The notes beneath the pieces were generated by a model. The model was not told where the DNA came from. It searched no databases and saw only the letters and a list, made by a program, of their open reading frames with translations. The position numbers and the translations under genes are program-made. Below are positions 47,343-54,886 of a stretch of DNA of 64,000 nucleotides, piece by piece; the first letter of the stretch is position 1; each line of letters starts with the position of its first letter. The stretch spans positions 38,243 to 102,242 of the forward strand of contig JAEEKA010000006.1 in assembly GCA_016282135.1 (NCBI GenBank). The letters run 5' to 3'. The stretch is from Oscillospiraceae bacterium. Lineage in GTDB: Bacteria > Bacillota > Clostridia > Oscillospirales > Oscillospiraceae.

Positions 47343-50300
47343 TTATTCCGCACAGGCCTTATAGAGGAACGTGACGACCTCCGCACGAGTGCATAGCTTC
47401 TTGGGACTAAAGGTATTCGGGCCGGTTCCGCCGGTGACGCCTAGTTCAACAGCCCAGCGGACTGCCGTGGCGTAGTAGGCGTTGGCGGAAACGTCCTGGA
47501 AGGGATTCTCGGTTTCCGCAGGCTCCGGAGACCCGGCATTTCGCCAAAGGAAGGTGACGATCTGCTCCCGGGTGCAATACTTGCCCACACCGAACAGACT
47601 CTCGCTGATTCCGTTGGTAATTCCCTGCTCTCTGGCCCAAAGAACTGCCTCGTAATAGTACTTGCCAGCCTTCACATCCGTGAAGGGCACACCGTTCCCC
47701 TCGGGTGCTGGCTTTCCGGCCGCTGCCCAAAGGAAGAACACAATCTGCTCGCGAGTGCATGGGGCATTGGGTGAGAAGTGGGTGGCGTCGGTGCCGCTGG
47801 TAATTCTGGGATCGTGATAATAGGCCCACAAGACAGCGTCATAGTAATACTTGCCTTCCGCAACGTCCACAAAGGGATTGGTCTGGTTCAGTCTTGGAAT
47901 CACTTCGGTACGAGTCGCTCCGCAGCGCAGGCAGGTGTAGAGCCGTTCACCGTCCTCGTTTTCAGTAGGCTCCAGGGTCACAACGCCCTCGTCCCAGTTA
48001 TGGCCCAGCGGGTTGACAGCGCTGTCAGTGTAGCTGTCGCCGCAGCGGGAGCAGGTGTGGGTCGTATAGCCTTCCTCGGTACAGGTGGGCTCGGTAACCA
48101 CAGCCGAATAGTCGTGGCCGAGAGGATCCACGGACTGAGTCTCAGTCTCGCTGCAGCGGGTGCAGGTACGGGTTTTCACACCGGCTTCCGTACAGGTAGG
48201 CTGGGCGGTGACAGCCCAGTCGCCGAAGGAATGCCCCAGCGCCGGGACAGAATCGCCCTGGTAGCTGTAGGAGCAGACCATGCAGGTGTAGGTGGTGTAG
48301 CCCGCCTCAGTGCAGGTGGGTTCCGTCACAGCGGAATTGTAGCTGCAGTTGGCGGTCTCCACGTTTCCGCAGACGGAGCAGCTGCGCTTATGGGTGCCGT
48401 CGTTGTTGGAGCTCCAGCCGCCGTAGCTGTGAACGCCCGTGGCGGGGATCAGGGTGCTTTCCAGAGTAATCTCATGCTGGCAGGCCTGGTCAGAGAAGTA
48501 CAGGCCGCAGCCGGTGCAGTAATAGTAGGCGGTATTGCCCGCGTCCACGCAGGTAGGCGCCTGGGCAGGCACGTACTCCGGCGTGTGCACATGGGTACCG
48601 GCTATGGGTTCGGTCCAATAGATAATGACAGATTCAGATGTCTCTTTCCAAAGCTGGGTCTTGCGGGAGGTATAAGCATTGCTGAGACAGAACTGGTCAT
48701 ATCCGTCCACCACCAAATAGATATAATCGTTGCAGGCCACGTTGGAAATGTTCATGCAGGAATTGGTAGAATCATAGGAGACCTTCCAGTCAGCGAAACT
48801 TGCCTCACAGTTTGACAAGTTGTACAGCCAGCCATCCCTCGAGCCGATCCAGTAGTTGGTAGGACTCTTGATGGTGTAGTAATTGCCCCTCTTGGCAAGG
48901 GTGAAGACATAGTCGTCGGCGACATTCCGCAGAACGGAACCGTCCTGGGTGATGCCCGTGTTATTGATGTTCGCAGAGACGGGCGCGTCATTATTTTCAA
49001 TCTGCTGCTCTCCATCAATTCCCTTGAAAACAACCAGATTATTCTTGCCAGGGCCGGTAATGACGTATTTTCCGGACCAGTCGACGGGAGCGGCCGTCAC
49101 CAGCTCGTAAGCACTGTTAGCGCTGCCCTCCGTCTTGGTAAACACGGCGTAGAGCGTGGTATTGCCCATCACGGTATAAGCGGCGCCGGGGGCATAGAAG
49201 ACTGGCTCATCCGTGGTCTGAGATGGAATACGAGTCTCAGTCCAGCCGGAGAATGTCCAACCCTCGGGATCCACGCTGACAGAATTGGGAAGGGTGATCT
49301 GATTGTAAAGCAGTGCGCTCTGGCTGCCCTCCAAAGTACCGGAAGCCATAAACTGCACGGTACAGGTGGGCTTGGCAGCGAAGATGACGCGGATGGTACA
49401 ATCGGATTGCGGAGTAACAGTAATGGTGTTAACGTCGATTACAGCGGTAGCGCTGCCGGAAATAACCTCATAGTCGGCAACATAGTAGCCCGCAGCAGGA
49501 GTAGCATGGATCACGTTGCCCTCTACGGTAACAGTACCCCAGGCAGTGTTGTTGGAAACAGCACTGACATTGAAATGGGAATCATCGGTGTAGGCCTTGA
49601 TGCGGTAGTCGCCGTTGTCCGGGCAGTCGGTCCAGGCCCCGCCGGGCTCCTTGTAGAAGGAAGTTGCACCGTGGTCGGCATGGGTCCAGGCACACCAGTA
49701 AACCACGTCCTCGTTATTGAAGCTTGCGTCGTAAGGGGTATGGATGCCGGATGATCCATTTGCGACATTCTGCGTAATCACTACGGAGAAGGTATCTCCG
49801 GCGGAAAGCTGAACCGAAGTATCCAGCGGAATGGTGTAGTAGCCGCAGAATGCGATCGTGCCGGATTTTGTGGCCACCAAGGTACCGGAGGACGGATTCC
49901 CTTCCGTGGGATTCCGGTAGATCTCCACTGTGTAGCTAAGACCTTCATCCCAACTGCAGAAGGAAACCGCTTTCAGCGATTCAAATCCATTGGCAGTAAA
50001 GACATTTGCCACCTTGGTGTTATTGGCCATGGGCTCAAAGTAACCGATAGATTCGCTCCAGCCCTTGCCGTAGCTGGCCAAATTGCAGGTGCCGTCGTAC
50101 TGGTAGTTATGCTGATAGTTGTCAATGGACTCCGCATCGAAGAAGTAGATGTAGCCCTCGCTCATGGAGGTGTCTTCGTAGGAAATATAGCAATAGCCGC
50201 CGTCAAAATAGTTGGTACCCCAACTGTTCTTGCAGATCCAGGCGCCGGGACTGGAGGGTCTGTTGGGAGAGAATTTGGAAGCGGAGATGGAATCATCCCA

Positions 50301-51155
50301 ACCGACGACAGTGATGGAGTGGTTGGCCCACTTGTGATTTTCGCTTTCCTGACTGGTGTTGTCGATATTGCAAATGTAGCTGTTGTAATTATCGTCCTCG
50401 TAGTAGCTGATGTTGCCCGCGCCGTATTCCATGATAGCGCGTTTGACAGCTTCTACATTCGTGCCGGGGATCCACTCAGAGTTCTGGACATGGCATACGT
50501 TATACTGATAAGCGTATTGGCTGCCCAGGCCGGAGTAGTTTACCGCAGCAGCGTTGCTGTAATGCAGGGCGTCCTGGGTCTCGTCAGCGGCTCCCTCCCA
50601 ACGCATCAGGGTATAGGCAGACATTTCACCGTTGCCGCCCTGATCCAGACAAGGGTCGTCGGGGATGGACCTGTCGCCGGTCAGCATGCCCTCTGCGTCA
50701 TAGGCGTAGGTGTAGTTGAACCAGCAGTGCTGGGACTCAGAGAGGTTTAGGCTGGTGGTAGCGGCTGTACCGTTTCCGACAGGAATGTGATTCTTGATCA
50801 TATAGCTCTCAATGCTGGCCATGGCAGCATGGGACCAGCAGGAGCCGTAGGGGTTTTGATTTTTTACGGAGGTAACTATATTGTAATCACGGCTGTCATA
50901 TTTGGAAGGCAGCGGATCCTTATTGCCACCGCCGGTAAACCGCTCATAGGTCGCACGGTCTCCGGACAGATAGGCGTCAGTCACGGCTCTTCCCGCAGGG
51001 TGTGTGACGGGAAGGAATCCGTTGCTGCGCTCCGAAGGCTTTGGCTCTTCTTCCTGTCCTCTTGATTCGACGCCCAAAACAGTCACGGGAAACAGGCACA
51101 GAATCATTGTGACAGTCAGAAGGAGCGCCAGCATCCTTTGCATCTTGTGTTTCAT
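47343..51155 (-). CDS. Secreted papain-like (C1) peptidase with CxxC/ALGH repeats and three C-terminal SLH domains
   Basis: Signal peptide; VKNQNPYGSCWSHAAMASIES (Gln/Cys), NHSITVVGWDD (His), WICKNSWGTNYFDGGYCYISY (Asn); SLH modules starting NPFVDVAEGKYYYDAVLWAYYH. Confidence 0.9.
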   Translation of the reverse strand: MKHKMQRMLALLLTVTMILCLFPVTVLGVESRGQEEEPKPSERSNGFLPVTHPAGRAVTDAYLSGDRATYERFTGGGNKDPLPSKYDSRDYNIVTSVKNQNPYGSCWSHAAMASIESYMIKNHIPVGNGTAATTSLNLSESQHCWFNYTYAYDAEGMLTGDRSIPDDPCLDQGGNGEMSAYTLMRWEGAADETQDALHYSNAAAVNYSGLGSQYAYQYNVCHVQNSEWIPGTNVEAVKRAIMEYGAGNISYYEDDNYNSYICNIDNTSQESENHKWANHSITVVGWDDSISASKFSPNRPSSPGAWICKNSWGTNYFDGGYCYISYEDTSMSEGYIYFFDAESIDNYQHNYQYDGTCNLASYGKGWSESIGYFEPMANNTKVANVFTANGFESLKAVSFCSWDEGLSYTVEIYRNPTEGNPSSGTLVATKSGTIAFCGYYTIPLDTSVQLSAGDTFSVVITQNVANGSSGIHTPYDASFNNEDVVYWCAWTHADHGATSFYKEPGGAWTDCPDNGDYRIKAYTDDSHFNVSAVSNNTAWGTVTVEGNVIHATPAAGYYVADYEVISGSATAVIDVNTITVTPQSDCTIRVIFAAKPTCTVQFMASGTLEGSQSALLYNQITLPNSVSVDPEGWTFSGWTETRIPSQTTDEPVFYAPGAAYTVMGNTTLYAVFTKTEGSANSAYELVTAAPVDWSGKYVITGPGKNNLVVFKGIDGEQQIENNDAPVSANINNTGITQDGSVLRNVADDYVFTLAKRGNYYTIKSPTNYWIGSRDGWLYNLSNCEASFADWKVSYDSTNSCMNISNVACNDYIYLVVDGYDQFCLSNAYTSRKTQLWKETSESVIIYWTEPIAGTHVHTPEYVPAQAPTCVDAGNTAYYYCTGCGLYFSDQACQHEITLESTLIPATGVHSYGGWSSNNDGTHKRSCSVCGNVETANCSYNSAVTEPTCTEAGYTTYTCMVCSYSYQGDSVPALGHSFGDWAVTAQPTCTEAGVKTRTCTRCSETETQSVDPLGHDYSAVVTEPTCTEEGYTTHTCSRCGDSYTDSAVNPLGHNWDEGVVTLEPTENEDGERLYTCLRCGATRTEVIPRLNQTNPFVDVAEGKYYYDAVLWAYYHDPRITSGTDATHFSPNAPCTREQIVFFLWAAAGKPAPEGNGVPFTDVKAGKYYYEAVLWAREQGITNGISESLFGVGKYCTREQIVTFLWRNAGSPEPAETENPFQDVSANAYYATAVRWAVELGVTGGTGPNTFSPKKLCTRAEVVTFLYKACAE

Positions 51156-51199
51156 ACTATGACCCTCCTTTGGTCAGTTTGCAGGAAAACGGGTTAGCT

Positions 51200-54100
51200 T
51201 CAGGAATTGACAGAACACACGATCGGGGGTTCATAATGCACGTTCAGCATTTCGTAGCGGTACAGGAAAGTGATTACTTCAGCGCGGGTGCAAAGTTTCT
51301 TGGGGCTGAAGGTATCCTTGCCGGTGCCGCCGGTAACAGCATTCTCCACAGCCCAGCGGACAGCCTTGGCGTAGTAGGCACGGGCGGGAACGTCGCTGAA
51401 GGGATTCGTTACGGTCTCGGGCTCCGGAGATTCTGCAGCGCGCCACAGGAAGGTGACAATCTGCTCACGGGAGCAATACTGGCCGACACCGAAGCAAGTC
51501 TCGGAAATACCTCCGGTGATTCCATTCTCCTGGGCCCAGAGCACAGCCTTGAAGTAATACTTGTTTTCCTTCACATCCGTAAAGCTCGTGGAGGTGGCTG
51601 CAGGCTCCGGCTTGCCGGATGCAGCCCAGAGGAAGAATACGAACTGCTCTCTGGTGCAGGGCGCTTTGGGAGAGAAGTGGGTCTCGTCGGTGCCGCCGGT
51701 GACCTGGGGCGCATGGTAGTAGGCCCAAATAACAGCGTCATAATAGTATCTGCCATAAGCGACGTCCACAAAGGGATTCGCGTACTGCAGCACAGGAATC
51801 ACCTCGGTGTGCGTCTCGCCGCAGCGGGCGCAGGTGAAGAGCATCTCACCTTCCGTCTCAGTGGTGGGTACCACAGTCACAACGCCGTTGTCCCAGTCGT
51901 GACCAAGCGCGTCAACGGTTCGGGTTTCCGCATTCTGGCAGCGAGAGCAGGTGCGGGTCTCCTGACCGGGCTCTGTGCAGGTGGGAGCGGTGGTAACAGT
52001 CCATTCGCCGTAGTTGTGGCCCAGCGGATTGGTTGCGCTGTCGGTATAGCTGTCGCTGCAGCGGGAGCAGGTATGGGTGGTGTAGCCTCCCTCGGTGCAG
52101 GTGGGCTCGGTGACCACTGCGTCGTAGTCATGGCCGAGGGCCGCCACCGATTCGGTCTCAACCGTATTGCAGCGGGAGCAGGTATGCTGCTTCTCACCCT
52201 GCTGCGTGCAAGTCGGAGCAACAGTCTGGGTCCAATCACTCCAATCGTGGCCAAGGGCGGCAACGGGATTTCCCTGGTAGCTGTAATCACACACAGTGCA
52301 GATATAAGTGGTGTAGCCGTCCTCGGTACAGGTGGGAATCGTCACGGCGTAATCATAGGCGCAGGCTTGGGACTCGCCGTTACCGCAGACGGAGCAGTTG
52401 CGGGTGTGGGTGCCGTTGTTGTTGGAAGTCCAATCACCATAGCTATGATTGCCGGTGGCAGCAAGCACAGTACTCTGCTGGGTGATCTCATGCTCGCCTG
52501 CTTCGTCGGAGAAGTACTTGCCGCAGACGATGCAGCGGTAGTACTCGGTATTGCCGGCGTTGCCGCAGGTGGGAGCAACAGCCTCAACATGCTGCATATT
52601 GTGCTCATGCACAATGTTGCCGGGATTGGTGGAGTAAATCTTGGTCCCGGATTCCGCTTCCTTCCACAGACGGACGGAGGTATTCGGAGAGGTATAGATC
52701 CAGAAGTAGTTCGAGCTGGTGCTGAAGCTCAGATAGGGATAGCTGCCGCCATTGGCCAATTCCATGCTGCTGAAATTCTCGCCGACACCGGGCGTCCAGT
52801 CGCATTTTCCGGAGGTGTAGGCCGTGTAGACCGCAAAGAAGCTTCCCTCCACGCCGAGATAGGCCTCAGTGGAAACATTCTGCACCGAGTAGTAGTTCCC
52901 ATGGTCTTCCATGGCGAAGACGAACTGATCGGGGACCTCAGCCAGCGTTTCGTCATCCAGAGTAGCTCCGGAATCAGAGAACTTGCCGGCGTTGGCGGCG
53001 ATCTCGATGTGCATGCCGTTGGAGGTGGGCGTCACGCCCTTCAAAAGGTACATGTTGCTGTCGGTGCCGTAGGTAATGACATAGTTGCCGTTCCAATCGC
53101 CAGGATCGTCCGACACAAGCTCGTAGATCACTTCACCGCCGCTGGTTCCTTCCACGCGGTAGTACAGAGCGTAGATAACGGTATCGGCTTCAGGCGTAAA
53201 GGCCGCGCCTGGCTTCAGGAAAGCGGGCTTTTCAACCGTCTCCTCGATTGCGTCGAGAACCCAGGCTTTAAAAGTCCAGCCTTCCACCTCGGGTGCGGTG
53301 GTCGGGAGCGTCACGGGATCGCCCACATAGCCAGGGGCAGTGGAATAGACTGAACCGTTGGCCACATAGGTCACAGTTGCGGGAGTCTTGGCAGCAAAGT
53401 TGATCTGAACGGTGCAGTTCGAAGATGCTTTGACTACGAACTTGTTGCCGTTCTGAGTTACCGTGGCGTCGCCTTCCAGAACAGTATATCCGGCGGCGTA
53501 GTAGCCCTCAGCAGGCTCTGCAGTGATGGAGGAGCCACGAACAGAAACAGTACCCCATTCGGTATTGTTGGAAACAGCAGAAACCTCATAGTTGGTGCCG
53601 AAAAGAGACCAGGAAGAATAGACGTCCTGCAAATCGTCCACATTGCCGTGTCCGGGGTAGGGATCCTCGGAAGAAACAACGATGGGGAAAGCGCAATCAT
53701 CGTTGCGCGCGCTCTCAATGGTGGGATGGGAGCTGTAGTAGTCCCAGGGGCCGACGGATTCCTTGGCAGCGGAAACCGCAGTGGCAAGGTCGTCGCCATT
53801 CTTAAGCGCACCGTTGACAGCACTCATGTAGGCCATATCGCCCACAAAAGAAACGGACTGAGAATAACCGTAGACAGCCTCAACGCCCTTATCGCGCAGA
53901 CCGGCCTCCATGCCATCGGTAGCCATACCCAGGCAGATACCCATGTAGAGGTAGCTGTTGGGGGCGTAGTCGGTCATATGGTTGGCAATGCAGGTGCCGC
54001 TGACGTAGGCGCCGCTGCCGCTTCTGATGCAATGATAGTAGGTGCCGAACTCGCCCTGCTGGGGCTCCGTATCAGCGGAGGTAATGCCGGTGCTGGTGGT

Positions 54101-54886
54101 CAGGCAGAGATAGGAGCAGTTGGCGCGGGAGGTGTAGTCACCGCCGGAGGAGTAGTCCGTCGTGCCGTGGGAATCGAACATCACGAAGCCGCATTCGCTC
54201 ATGGCGTGGGCGATGTTGTCCACGGTAGCGGTAGACATGGCATAGCGAAGGCCTTCTCCGCCGGTGGTCTCATAGAGAGACTGCCACAGGGCCTTGTACT
54301 GGGGGGAATAGCTGTTGAAAGAGCTGTCGGCGTAATTGGAGGAGGACTCCCAATAGGGCTGAATCAGGCCGATATTCATGGAATTGGGACCACCCTTCAC
54401 GGGATAGATCTCTTCCAGCATCGCCTGGGCCGCAGCCTCGGCCTTGGCGATCTCTTCCGGGGTGGGATCATTCTCGGTGTTATAGAGCTCAGCCTCCATT
54501 CTGGGGTCGTAGCAACAAGGAATGCCGATTGTCGTTTCCCAGACAAGGAAATTGCCGTTTTGCTGCAGGGTACCGGGAACGTAGGTTTCAGAATTCTTGA
54601 CTGTATCGATCACCTGGGGAACCAGGTCGATGTAGTCCTGCTCGGTCATTTGGCTGATGCCGCCAAGTTTATTGGCGGCTTTTGTTTTAACAGTTTCGAT
54701 CTTGGCAAAGACATCGCGGTCAATGGCAGCGTTGTCTTCTTCGGTATACACATAGACGGATTTGGGAGCATCCGCCTGCTGCTTATCTGAAGAGACTGCG
54801 GCCGCCGGGAGAGGCAGCATTCCGATCATCAAAGCCAACATCATCGTGAGGGCGACGAACCGAACGAATGATTTTTTCATTGTCAT
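51200..54886 (-). CDS. Secreted protein with candidate clan-CD-like Cys peptidase head, CxxC/ALGH repeats and three C-terminal SLH domains
   Basis: Signal peptide; CGFVMFDSHGTTD (His240-Gly) and SYLYMGICLGMATDG (Cys318); C-terminal ~700 aa paralogous to the adjacent C1 protein. Confidence 0.8.
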   Translation of the reverse strand: MTMKKSFVRFVALTMMLALMIGMLPLPAAAVSSDKQQADAPKSVYVYTEEDNAAIDRDVFAKIETVKTKAANKLGGISQMTEQDYIDLVPQVIDTVKNSETYVPGTLQQNGNFLVWETTIGIPCCYDPRMEAELYNTENDPTPEEIAKAEAAAQAMLEEIYPVKGGPNSMNIGLIQPYWESSSNYADSSFNSYSPQYKALWQSLYETTGGEGLRYAMSTATVDNIAHAMSECGFVMFDSHGTTDYSSGGDYTSRANCSYLCLTTSTGITSADTEPQQGEFGTYYHCIRSGSGAYVSGTCIANHMTDYAPNSYLYMGICLGMATDGMEAGLRDKGVEAVYGYSQSVSFVGDMAYMSAVNGALKNGDDLATAVSAAKESVGPWDYYSSHPTIESARNDDCAFPIVVSSEDPYPGHGNVDDLQDVYSSWSLFGTNYEVSAVSNNTEWGTVSVRGSSITAEPAEGYYAAGYTVLEGDATVTQNGNKFVVKASSNCTVQINFAAKTPATVTYVANGSVYSTAPGYVGDPVTLPTTAPEVEGWTFKAWVLDAIEETVEKPAFLKPGAAFTPEADTVIYALYYRVEGTSGGEVIYELVSDDPGDWNGNYVITYGTDSNMYLLKGVTPTSNGMHIEIAANAGKFSDSGATLDDETLAEVPDQFVFAMEDHGNYYSVQNVSTEAYLGVEGSFFAVYTAYTSGKCDWTPGVGENFSSMELANGGSYPYLSFSTSSNYFWIYTSPNTSVRLWKEAESGTKIYSTNPGNIVHEHNMQHVEAVAPTCGNAGNTEYYRCIVCGKYFSDEAGEHEITQQSTVLAATGNHSYGDWTSNNNGTHTRNCSVCGNGESQACAYDYAVTIPTCTEDGYTTYICTVCDYSYQGNPVAALGHDWSDWTQTVAPTCTQQGEKQHTCSRCNTVETESVAALGHDYDAVVTEPTCTEGGYTTHTCSRCSDSYTDSATNPLGHNYGEWTVTTAPTCTEPGQETRTCSRCQNAETRTVDALGHDWDNGVVTVVPTTETEGEMLFTCARCGETHTEVIPVLQYANPFVDVAYGRYYYDAVIWAYYHAPQVTGGTDETHFSPKAPCTREQFVFFLWAASGKPEPAATSTSFTDVKENKYYFKAVLWAQENGITGGISETCFGVGQYCSREQIVTFLWRAAESPEPETVTNPFSDVPARAYYAKAVRWAVENAVTGGTGKDTFSPKKLCTRAEVITFLYRYEMLNVHYEPPIVCSVNS

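Follow-up and report, generated by a model that had tools for sequence, protein, structure and literature searches.

Adjacent genes of a rumen-type clostridium combine different hydrolase-type heads with a shared predicted beta-trefoil stem

The window is a 64,000-nucleotide stretch of DNA from an uncultured rumen-type clostridium (Oscillospiraceae bacterium, GenBank assembly GCA_016282135.1, contig JAEEKA010000006.1, positions 38,243 to 102,242). On its minus strand lie two adjacent genes, gene 1 upstream and gene 2 downstream, whose proteins P0001 and P0002 have the same C-terminal half and different N-terminal heads. The C-terminal half consists of a three-domain stem, a run of cysteine repeats (Cys/LGH repeats) and three surface-layer homology (SLH) repeats. 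The head of gene 1 is predicted to be a clan-CD-like (CD) domain, and that of gene 2 is a papain domain. Relatives in the genus carry further head types on the same stem, and protein identities, DNA and trees together support recombination between heads and stems.

The gene pair and its shared C-terminal half

Features are listed with their positions in the window, strand and basis of assignment.

51200-54886, minus strand: gene 1 (P0001, 1228 aa), clan-CD-like head, stem, Cys/LGH repeats and three SLH repeats
54794-54886, minus strand: gene 1 predicted signal peptide, residues 1-31 (charged start, hydrophobic core, AAA; read from the sequence by eye)
53594-54793, minus strand: gene 1 head, residues 32-431, unclassified clan-CD-like domain (AlphaFold2 and Foldseek)
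54164-54169, minus strand: His240-Gly241, predicted catalytic His and its Gly, after a predicted strand (invariant in 88 of 88 heads)
53933-53935, minus strand: Cys318, predicted nucleophile, after a predicted strand (invariant in 88 of 88 heads)
52622-53593, minus strand: gene 1 stem, residues 432-755, two small beta domains and then a beta-trefoil at about 581-755 (alignments, AlphaFold2, Foldseek)
51782-52600, minus strand: gene 1 Cys/LGH repeat region, five C-x9-C-x2-C units (sequence pattern)
51251-51778, minus strand: gene 1 SLH repeats, three, residues 1037-1212 (PF00395, three stretches)
51156-51199, minus strand: gap between gene 1 and gene 2, 44 nt, with Shine-Dalgarno-like aaaggaggg and without a terminator-like site
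47343-51155, minus strand: gene 2 (P0002, 1270 aa), papain head, lectin-like domain, stem, Cys/LGH repeats and three SLH repeats
51069-51155, minus strand: gene 2 predicted signal peptide, residues 1-29 (read from the sequence by eye)
50172-50912, minus strand: gene 2 papain (C1) domain, residues 82-328 (PF00112, E 3.8e-14; Q100, C106, H279, N310)
49587-50063, minus strand: gene 2 lectin-like domain, residues 365-523 (PF18560, E 4.4e-24)
48606-49577, minus strand: gene 2 stem, residues 527-850 (sequence alignment)
47889-48587, minus strand: gene 2 Cys/LGH repeat region, four units (sequence pattern)
47352-47879, minus strand: gene 2 SLH repeats, three, residues 1093-1268 (PF00395, three stretches)

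A preliminary description of the locus reported two adjacent reading frames with the same C-terminal half, and both the coordinates and the likeness hold. In BLASTP the two proteins align over 784 residues with 50% identity and 740 bits. The alignment runs from P0002:526 and P0001:431 to the C-terminus with a sharp onset at the head end, and BLASTP finds no convincing similarity between the two heads. Identity climbs toward the C-terminus, from 34% in the three-domain stem to about 62% in the Cys/LGH stretch and 73% in the SLH triplet. An alignment of this length that starts at the end of the head exceeds generic SLH similarity and rules it out as the sole shared feature. The higher identity of the SLH triplets relative to the stems could reflect either C-terminal conversion or stronger constraint. 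The gap between the genes holds a Shine-Dalgarno-like sequence before the gene 2 start and no terminator-like site, which makes co-transcription likely; the two genes probably share one transcript.

The order of modules reported earlier is also borne out, with refinements. The unit then marked by the motif 'DW-G-YVIT' is a predicted beta-trefoil, and there are five Cys repeats in P0001 against four in P0002. For the stem, AlphaFold2 gives a model with a predicted local distance difference test score (pLDDT) of 94.3 and a predicted template modelling score (pTM) of 0.73. Foldseek matches of the trefoil unit are nearly all trefoils, with target TM-scores up to 0.76, and profile matches of this third stem domain are to HA17, fascin and FGF. 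These trefoil matches comprise lectins and non-lectins, and the domain may bind carbohydrate. The two units before the trefoil show a resemblance to InlB-type and Listeria-Bacteroides repeats that is weak in the window and exceeds the cut-off in some paralogues.

The Cys/LGH and CTRxx motifs of the preliminary description are found in most copies, with exceptions. The pattern C-x9-C-x2-C is followed by LGH in every Cys repeat except the first copy of each protein, and one of the six SLH repeats in the window has CSREQ where the others have CTR. No Pfam family matches the C-x9-C-x2-C...LGH repeats above cut-off. With three Cys and one His, the unit would suit a small zinc site. In nearly all SLH repeats, both in the window and in other SLH proteins of the genus, the residue before the TRAE-type motif is Cys (CTRAE, CTREQ) rather than the usual hydrophobic residue. 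Both proteins have three SLH repeats and signal-like N-termini, the latter read from sequence only, and their attachment to the wall through SLH would follow from this architecture. Such attachment would call for a pyruvylated wall polymer from a CsaB-type enzyme. The host genome has 109 SLH-domain matches and two genes for PF04230 (polysaccharide pyruvyl transferase), a family broader than CsaB.

The same tandem of a CD gene followed by a papain gene is present at one locus of a sister species (L032/L113). Gene 1 and its sister-species copy are 90% identical in the head, 91% in the stem and 76% in SLH; for gene 2 the values are 74%, 60% and 86%. Judged from this conservation, the window pair is an old combination common to sister species, and a recent swap inside it is rejected.

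A papain head and a predicted clan-CD-like head

The complete papain set of Gln, Cys, His and Asn noted earlier lies in the gene 2 head as Q100, C106, H279 and N310, and the same four residues are invariant in 30 of 30 papain heads. With a C1 domain that has all four residues and a lectin-like domain after it, gene 2 has the make-up of a Cwp84-like C1 peptidase, and Cwp84 is the best PDB match of its papain head (9.2e-23). Cwp84 likewise has a lectin-like domain after the protease and has been studied as a surface-layer (S-layer) maturation protease (PMC4089489). The likeness to C. difficile extends to its Cwp family as a whole, in which surface enzymes carry differing functional domains on a common anchor. 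The window proteins differ from Cwp84 in having SLH rather than CWB2 repeats (PF04122) as the anchor and a beta-trefoil stem ahead of it, after the head; several other hydrolase classes are found on that stem as well.

The gene 1 head has the His-Gly and Cys blocks described previously, at H240-G241 and C318, and both are invariant in 88 of 88 heads. It finds no family match in Pfam (above cut-off), NCBIfam or PDB sequences, either with the single sequence or with a 62-row profile. The AlphaFold2 model, built from 62 sequences, has a pLDDT of 91.9 and a pTM of 0.90. Foldseek matches of this model are mostly to clan CD (CHAT, separase, metacaspase, gingipain R and caspases). Predicted strands 203-208 and 280-286 (fragment numbering) lead into the His and the Cys, and the model thus has a caspase-like fold with both residues at the ends of core strands. 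The order of His-Gly and a later Cys is that of clan CD. The predicted fold means that the head is not unrelated to peptidases, and we take it to be a clan-CD-like domain that would act as a peptidase.

In its His-Gly and later Cys, each after a core strand, and in its Foldseek matches to several clan members, the head resembles clan CD (caspase C14, clostripain C11, gingipain C25, separase C50 and CHAT-type proteins). It is unlike these in having no detectable sequence similarity to any member, C11 by profile included, in having Ile instead of Ala or Gly before the Cys, and in the long spacing of 78 residues between His and Cys. The C11 motif is His-Gly-(X)n-Ala-Cys (PMC12445089). C11 identity is rejected on the Ile before the Cys and on hhalign comparison with ten C11 domains, which gave a probability of 0.4% and no match. 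A true C11 gene lies elsewhere in the host genome, on contig C100. When 81 genomes of the phylum were searched for CHAT, a single weak match came up, which did not suffice to build a profile. Two distant homologues of the CD head, with quite different architectures, occur in another family of the class (L211:1713-4304 and L212:1143-3872). They have zinc-ribbon and membrane-type segments with CarboxypepD_reg or VWA domains, and keep DSHG and the Cys with much else lost. From their sequences there looks to be a wider, uncharacterised clan-CD-like group.

Head types and support for head/stem exchange in the genus

The host genome is a metagenome-assembled genome (MAG) that totals 2.5 Mb and is spread over 120 contigs, with a completeness of 85.6% and a contamination of 4.4%. 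Stem matches in it number 20 and fall on roughly a dozen proteins; these counts are lower bounds, since contig ends cut many copies short. Stem-borne heads in this genome are papain (window, C4 and C113), CD (window, C86, C5, C72, C101, C73 and C95) and M30-like (C4 and C34). The M30-like head matches lugdulysin (PDB 7bb8, 2.9e-16 over 332 residues). Stem-borne M30 heads, in C4/C34 and in relatives, share with lugdulysin the HExxH motif and downstream Glu, which are invariant in 10 of 10 M30 heads; they differ from it in standing on the shared stem, in tandem after a papain gene. A headless protein of 2475 aa on C117 (L025:8280-15704) has a short N-terminal remnant like the start of CD-head proteins, four stem copies, a Cys/LGH array with many more copies than in the window genes, and SLH. 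It looks, from this remnant, to have lost a CD head. The end of C113 and the start of C34 overlap by 94 nt, and the ends of C34 and C86 share 141 nt (contig ends at L022, L023 and L026); stem repeats break the assembly. The C113/C34 overlap suggests a second papain-M30 tandem.

The stem is found in 22 of 22 other genomes of the genus searched. In a class-wide sample it occurs in the host genome only, and the CD head in 3 of 391 genomes, two of these as distant relatives; a small number of genera elsewhere in the family have both stem and CD head. Those relatives of the CD head that are named come mostly from MAGs of rumen and other gut Clostridia. A survey of relatives for the same C-terminal module under other heads, as had been proposed, found at least six head types in the genus: papain, CD, lugdulysin-like M30, S8 subtilase, endonuclease I and Cthe_2159. 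Every head checked (88 CD, 30 papain, 10 M30 and 10 S8) has its catalytic motifs intact. Those with endonuclease I heads (PF04231; L175, L184, L185 and L186) are apparently secreted nucleases. SLH repeats are present in 21 of 49 complete stem-bearing reading frames. The preliminary picture of protease-type heads on a surface chassis needs qualifying for the family as a whole, since the heads of some members are not proteases and over half of the complete members have no SLH. Several members (L128, L136, L138, L147, L177 and L184) have neither SLH nor a bare trefoil at the C-terminus but a short, helix-like tail such as NALLHYVDAAKAAYGN. This tail is possibly another attachment or sorting signal.

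Mixed tandems stand in one order in 8 of 8 cases, either CD then papain (4) or papain then M30 (4), and never reversed (L112, L113, L114, L118, L128, L021 and the window). The gaps are 44-135 nt, save one CD-papain case at 5.2 kb. One reading frame of 1868 aa (L147:500-6103) looks like a fused papain-M30 tandem: its papain head is followed by part of a stem, then by an M30 head and another stem.

Identities of heads and stems conflict. In one genome, a CD protein (L023) and an M30 protein (L022) have stems 86% identical in protein under unrelated heads, while the CD heads of L023 and L029 are 91% identical on stems that are 44% identical. The head of L028 is 61-64% identical to window-type heads and 45% identical to that of L027, and the stems of L028 and L027 are 76% identical. 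The same conflict is seen in DNA. The stems of these M30 and CD genes (L022 and L023) are 85.2% identical in DNA, with similarity beginning 2 nt inside the stem. An M30/CD pair in another MAG (G156) is 85.3% identical over 1761 nt, an S8/papain pair 79.5% over 2449 nt, and an M30/papain pair 80% from 21 nt inside the stem. The like CD heads of C86 and C95 are 88% identical across the head, and similarity is lost 10 nt before the stem. Since unlike heads have no homology, their alignments necessarily stop at the head/stem boundary; what is informative is that stems are highly identical beneath unlike heads and that genes with like heads lose their similarity at this very point.

The stem tree requires 16 head-class changes, against a minimum of 6 and a mean of 50 in shuffles. 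Approximately unbiased (AU) tests, with head groups named from the heads and not from the tree, reject a single origin on the stem tree for M30 (p 4e-4) and for CD, papain and S8 (p 1e-6 or less). Identity conflict, DNA and trees agree in supporting head/stem recombination at the genus level. The swapping of catalytic heads on a common chassis, as first proposed, stands at this level through the DNA exchanges and AU tests, but not as a recent event in the window pair, which is old.

Interpretation, alternatives and meaning

The reading that we consider probable is one of exchangeable exported hydrolase heads on a shared stem, with the window holding a clan-CD-like peptidase and a Cwp84-like papain, digestion at the surface mainly for nutrition, and reshuffling that ends at the junction. 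In this proposal, the window proteins would belong to a large exported family with its centre in one genus, whose members join an exchangeable N-terminal hydrolase head to a shared C-terminal stem. The stem has two small beta domains before its beta-trefoil, and Cys/LGH repeats and three SLH repeats often come after it. The SLH repeats would hold the proteins on the cell wall, and the heads would cut proteins there, mainly to feed the cell. Protein digestion at the cell surface is the likely role, to judge by the export signals (recognised by eye), the SLH repeats, the preserved catalytic residues and the variety of hydrolase heads. Reshuffling would proceed by recombination ending at the head/stem junction. 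The simplest route would be gene conversion or crossover between homologous stems of paralogues, replacing the stem beneath a resident head and halting at the edge of homology, which is the pattern seen in the data. Stem exchange under resident heads fits at least as well as head insertion, which would look similar.

Several observations weigh against this reading. Foldseek TM-scores for the gene 1 head are modest, 0.3-0.5. SLH is absent in 28 of the 49 complete members, and surface anchoring is thus not general. On the stem tree, proteins of one head class are strongly clustered (16 changes, with a mean of 50 in shuffles), which indicates that exchange is occasional. This tree comes from a quick search and has some long branches, so that the overall rejection is more secure than any single placement. 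Stem copies are often at contig ends in these genomes, which are fragmented MAGs.

The main rival, which we regard as unlikely, is that the proteins are envelope or S-layer maturation proteases acting on the cell's own SLH proteins, as Cwp84 acts on SlpA. Among solved structures the papain head is closest to Cwp84, studied as such a maturation protease (PMC4089489), and the host genome has 109 SLH-domain matches. However, one genome has many paralogues of three peptidase classes, and relatives have nuclease and Cthe_2159 heads on the same stem; digestion of external polymers fits this range better than one processing step. Many family members also have no SLH.

An explanation by old fusions alone, in which each head joined the stem once and duplication and divergence followed with no later exchange, would account for the clustering of head classes on the stem tree and for the conservation of the window pair as a unit with the sister species. 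We judge it improbable, as a single stem origin is rejected in the AU tests for each of M30, CD, papain and S8, and one genome holds both near-identical stems under unrelated heads and near-identical heads on different stems.

Still less probable is an artefact of assembly or binning, with the mixed genes being chimaeras misassembled across stem repeats or coming from a contaminant genome. Stem copies that often end contigs, the 141 nt shared by C34 and C86, the 94-nt overlap of C113 and C34, and the completeness and contamination of the host MAG given above speak for it. The M30/CD stem pair, however, differs by 15% in DNA and is not one sequence joined twice. The same combination occurs in an independent MAG inside an 88-kb contig (L118), and genes of the C86/C95 type have 94-97% identical counterparts, in tandem, in G152. 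On the independent MAG evidence, artefact as the sole cause is rejected. In a last reading the proteins are effectors resembling polymorphic toxins, in which a constant part for trafficking is combined with toxic ends that vary and act against competitors. The pairing of a constant part with a variable catalytic one, nuclease heads included, agrees with it, but this reading is highly implausible and is rejected: such toxins vary at the C-terminal toxin domain (PMC3482391), whereas the variable end is N-terminal here and most heads are secreted-type proteases.

With exchangeable heads on a shared stem as the preferred reading, the principle of modular surface enzymes on a shared anchor is already known from C. 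difficile Cwp proteins and cellulosomal systems. Cellulosomal and other modular surface hydrolases, like polymorphic toxins, join varied catalytic modules to a conserved delivery or anchoring part; unlike in cellulosomal systems, Pfam scans of the stem proteins reported no dockerin or cohesin. New, as far as our searches reach, are the unclassified clan-CD-like head family, the beta-trefoil stem common to at least six head classes, and head/stem exchange visible in DNA. The open-access literature gave papers on Cwp84 and clan CD and no description of the stem/head family, an absence that is weak evidence.

More tentatively, and as slightly less likely than not, stem-directed recombination between paralogues may be a standing diversifier of surface enzymes in this genus. 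Unrelated hydrolase heads would repeatedly be joined to the common trefoil stem and, separately, to different C-terminal ends, and one main head would be a peptidase family absent from Pfam, NCBIfam and PDB sequences. Breakdown of protein in the rumen affects nitrogen loss from livestock. If the proposal is true, the family illustrates clearly, down to the DNA junctions, how bacteria in nature recombine unrelated hydrolases with one shared surface stem, and it adds a candidate new peptidase family to clan CD. The head/stem pairs would be a ready test set for the contribution of the stem to enzyme location, and the family would point to a way in which uncultured clostridia of the rumen and gut could break down protein on their surface.

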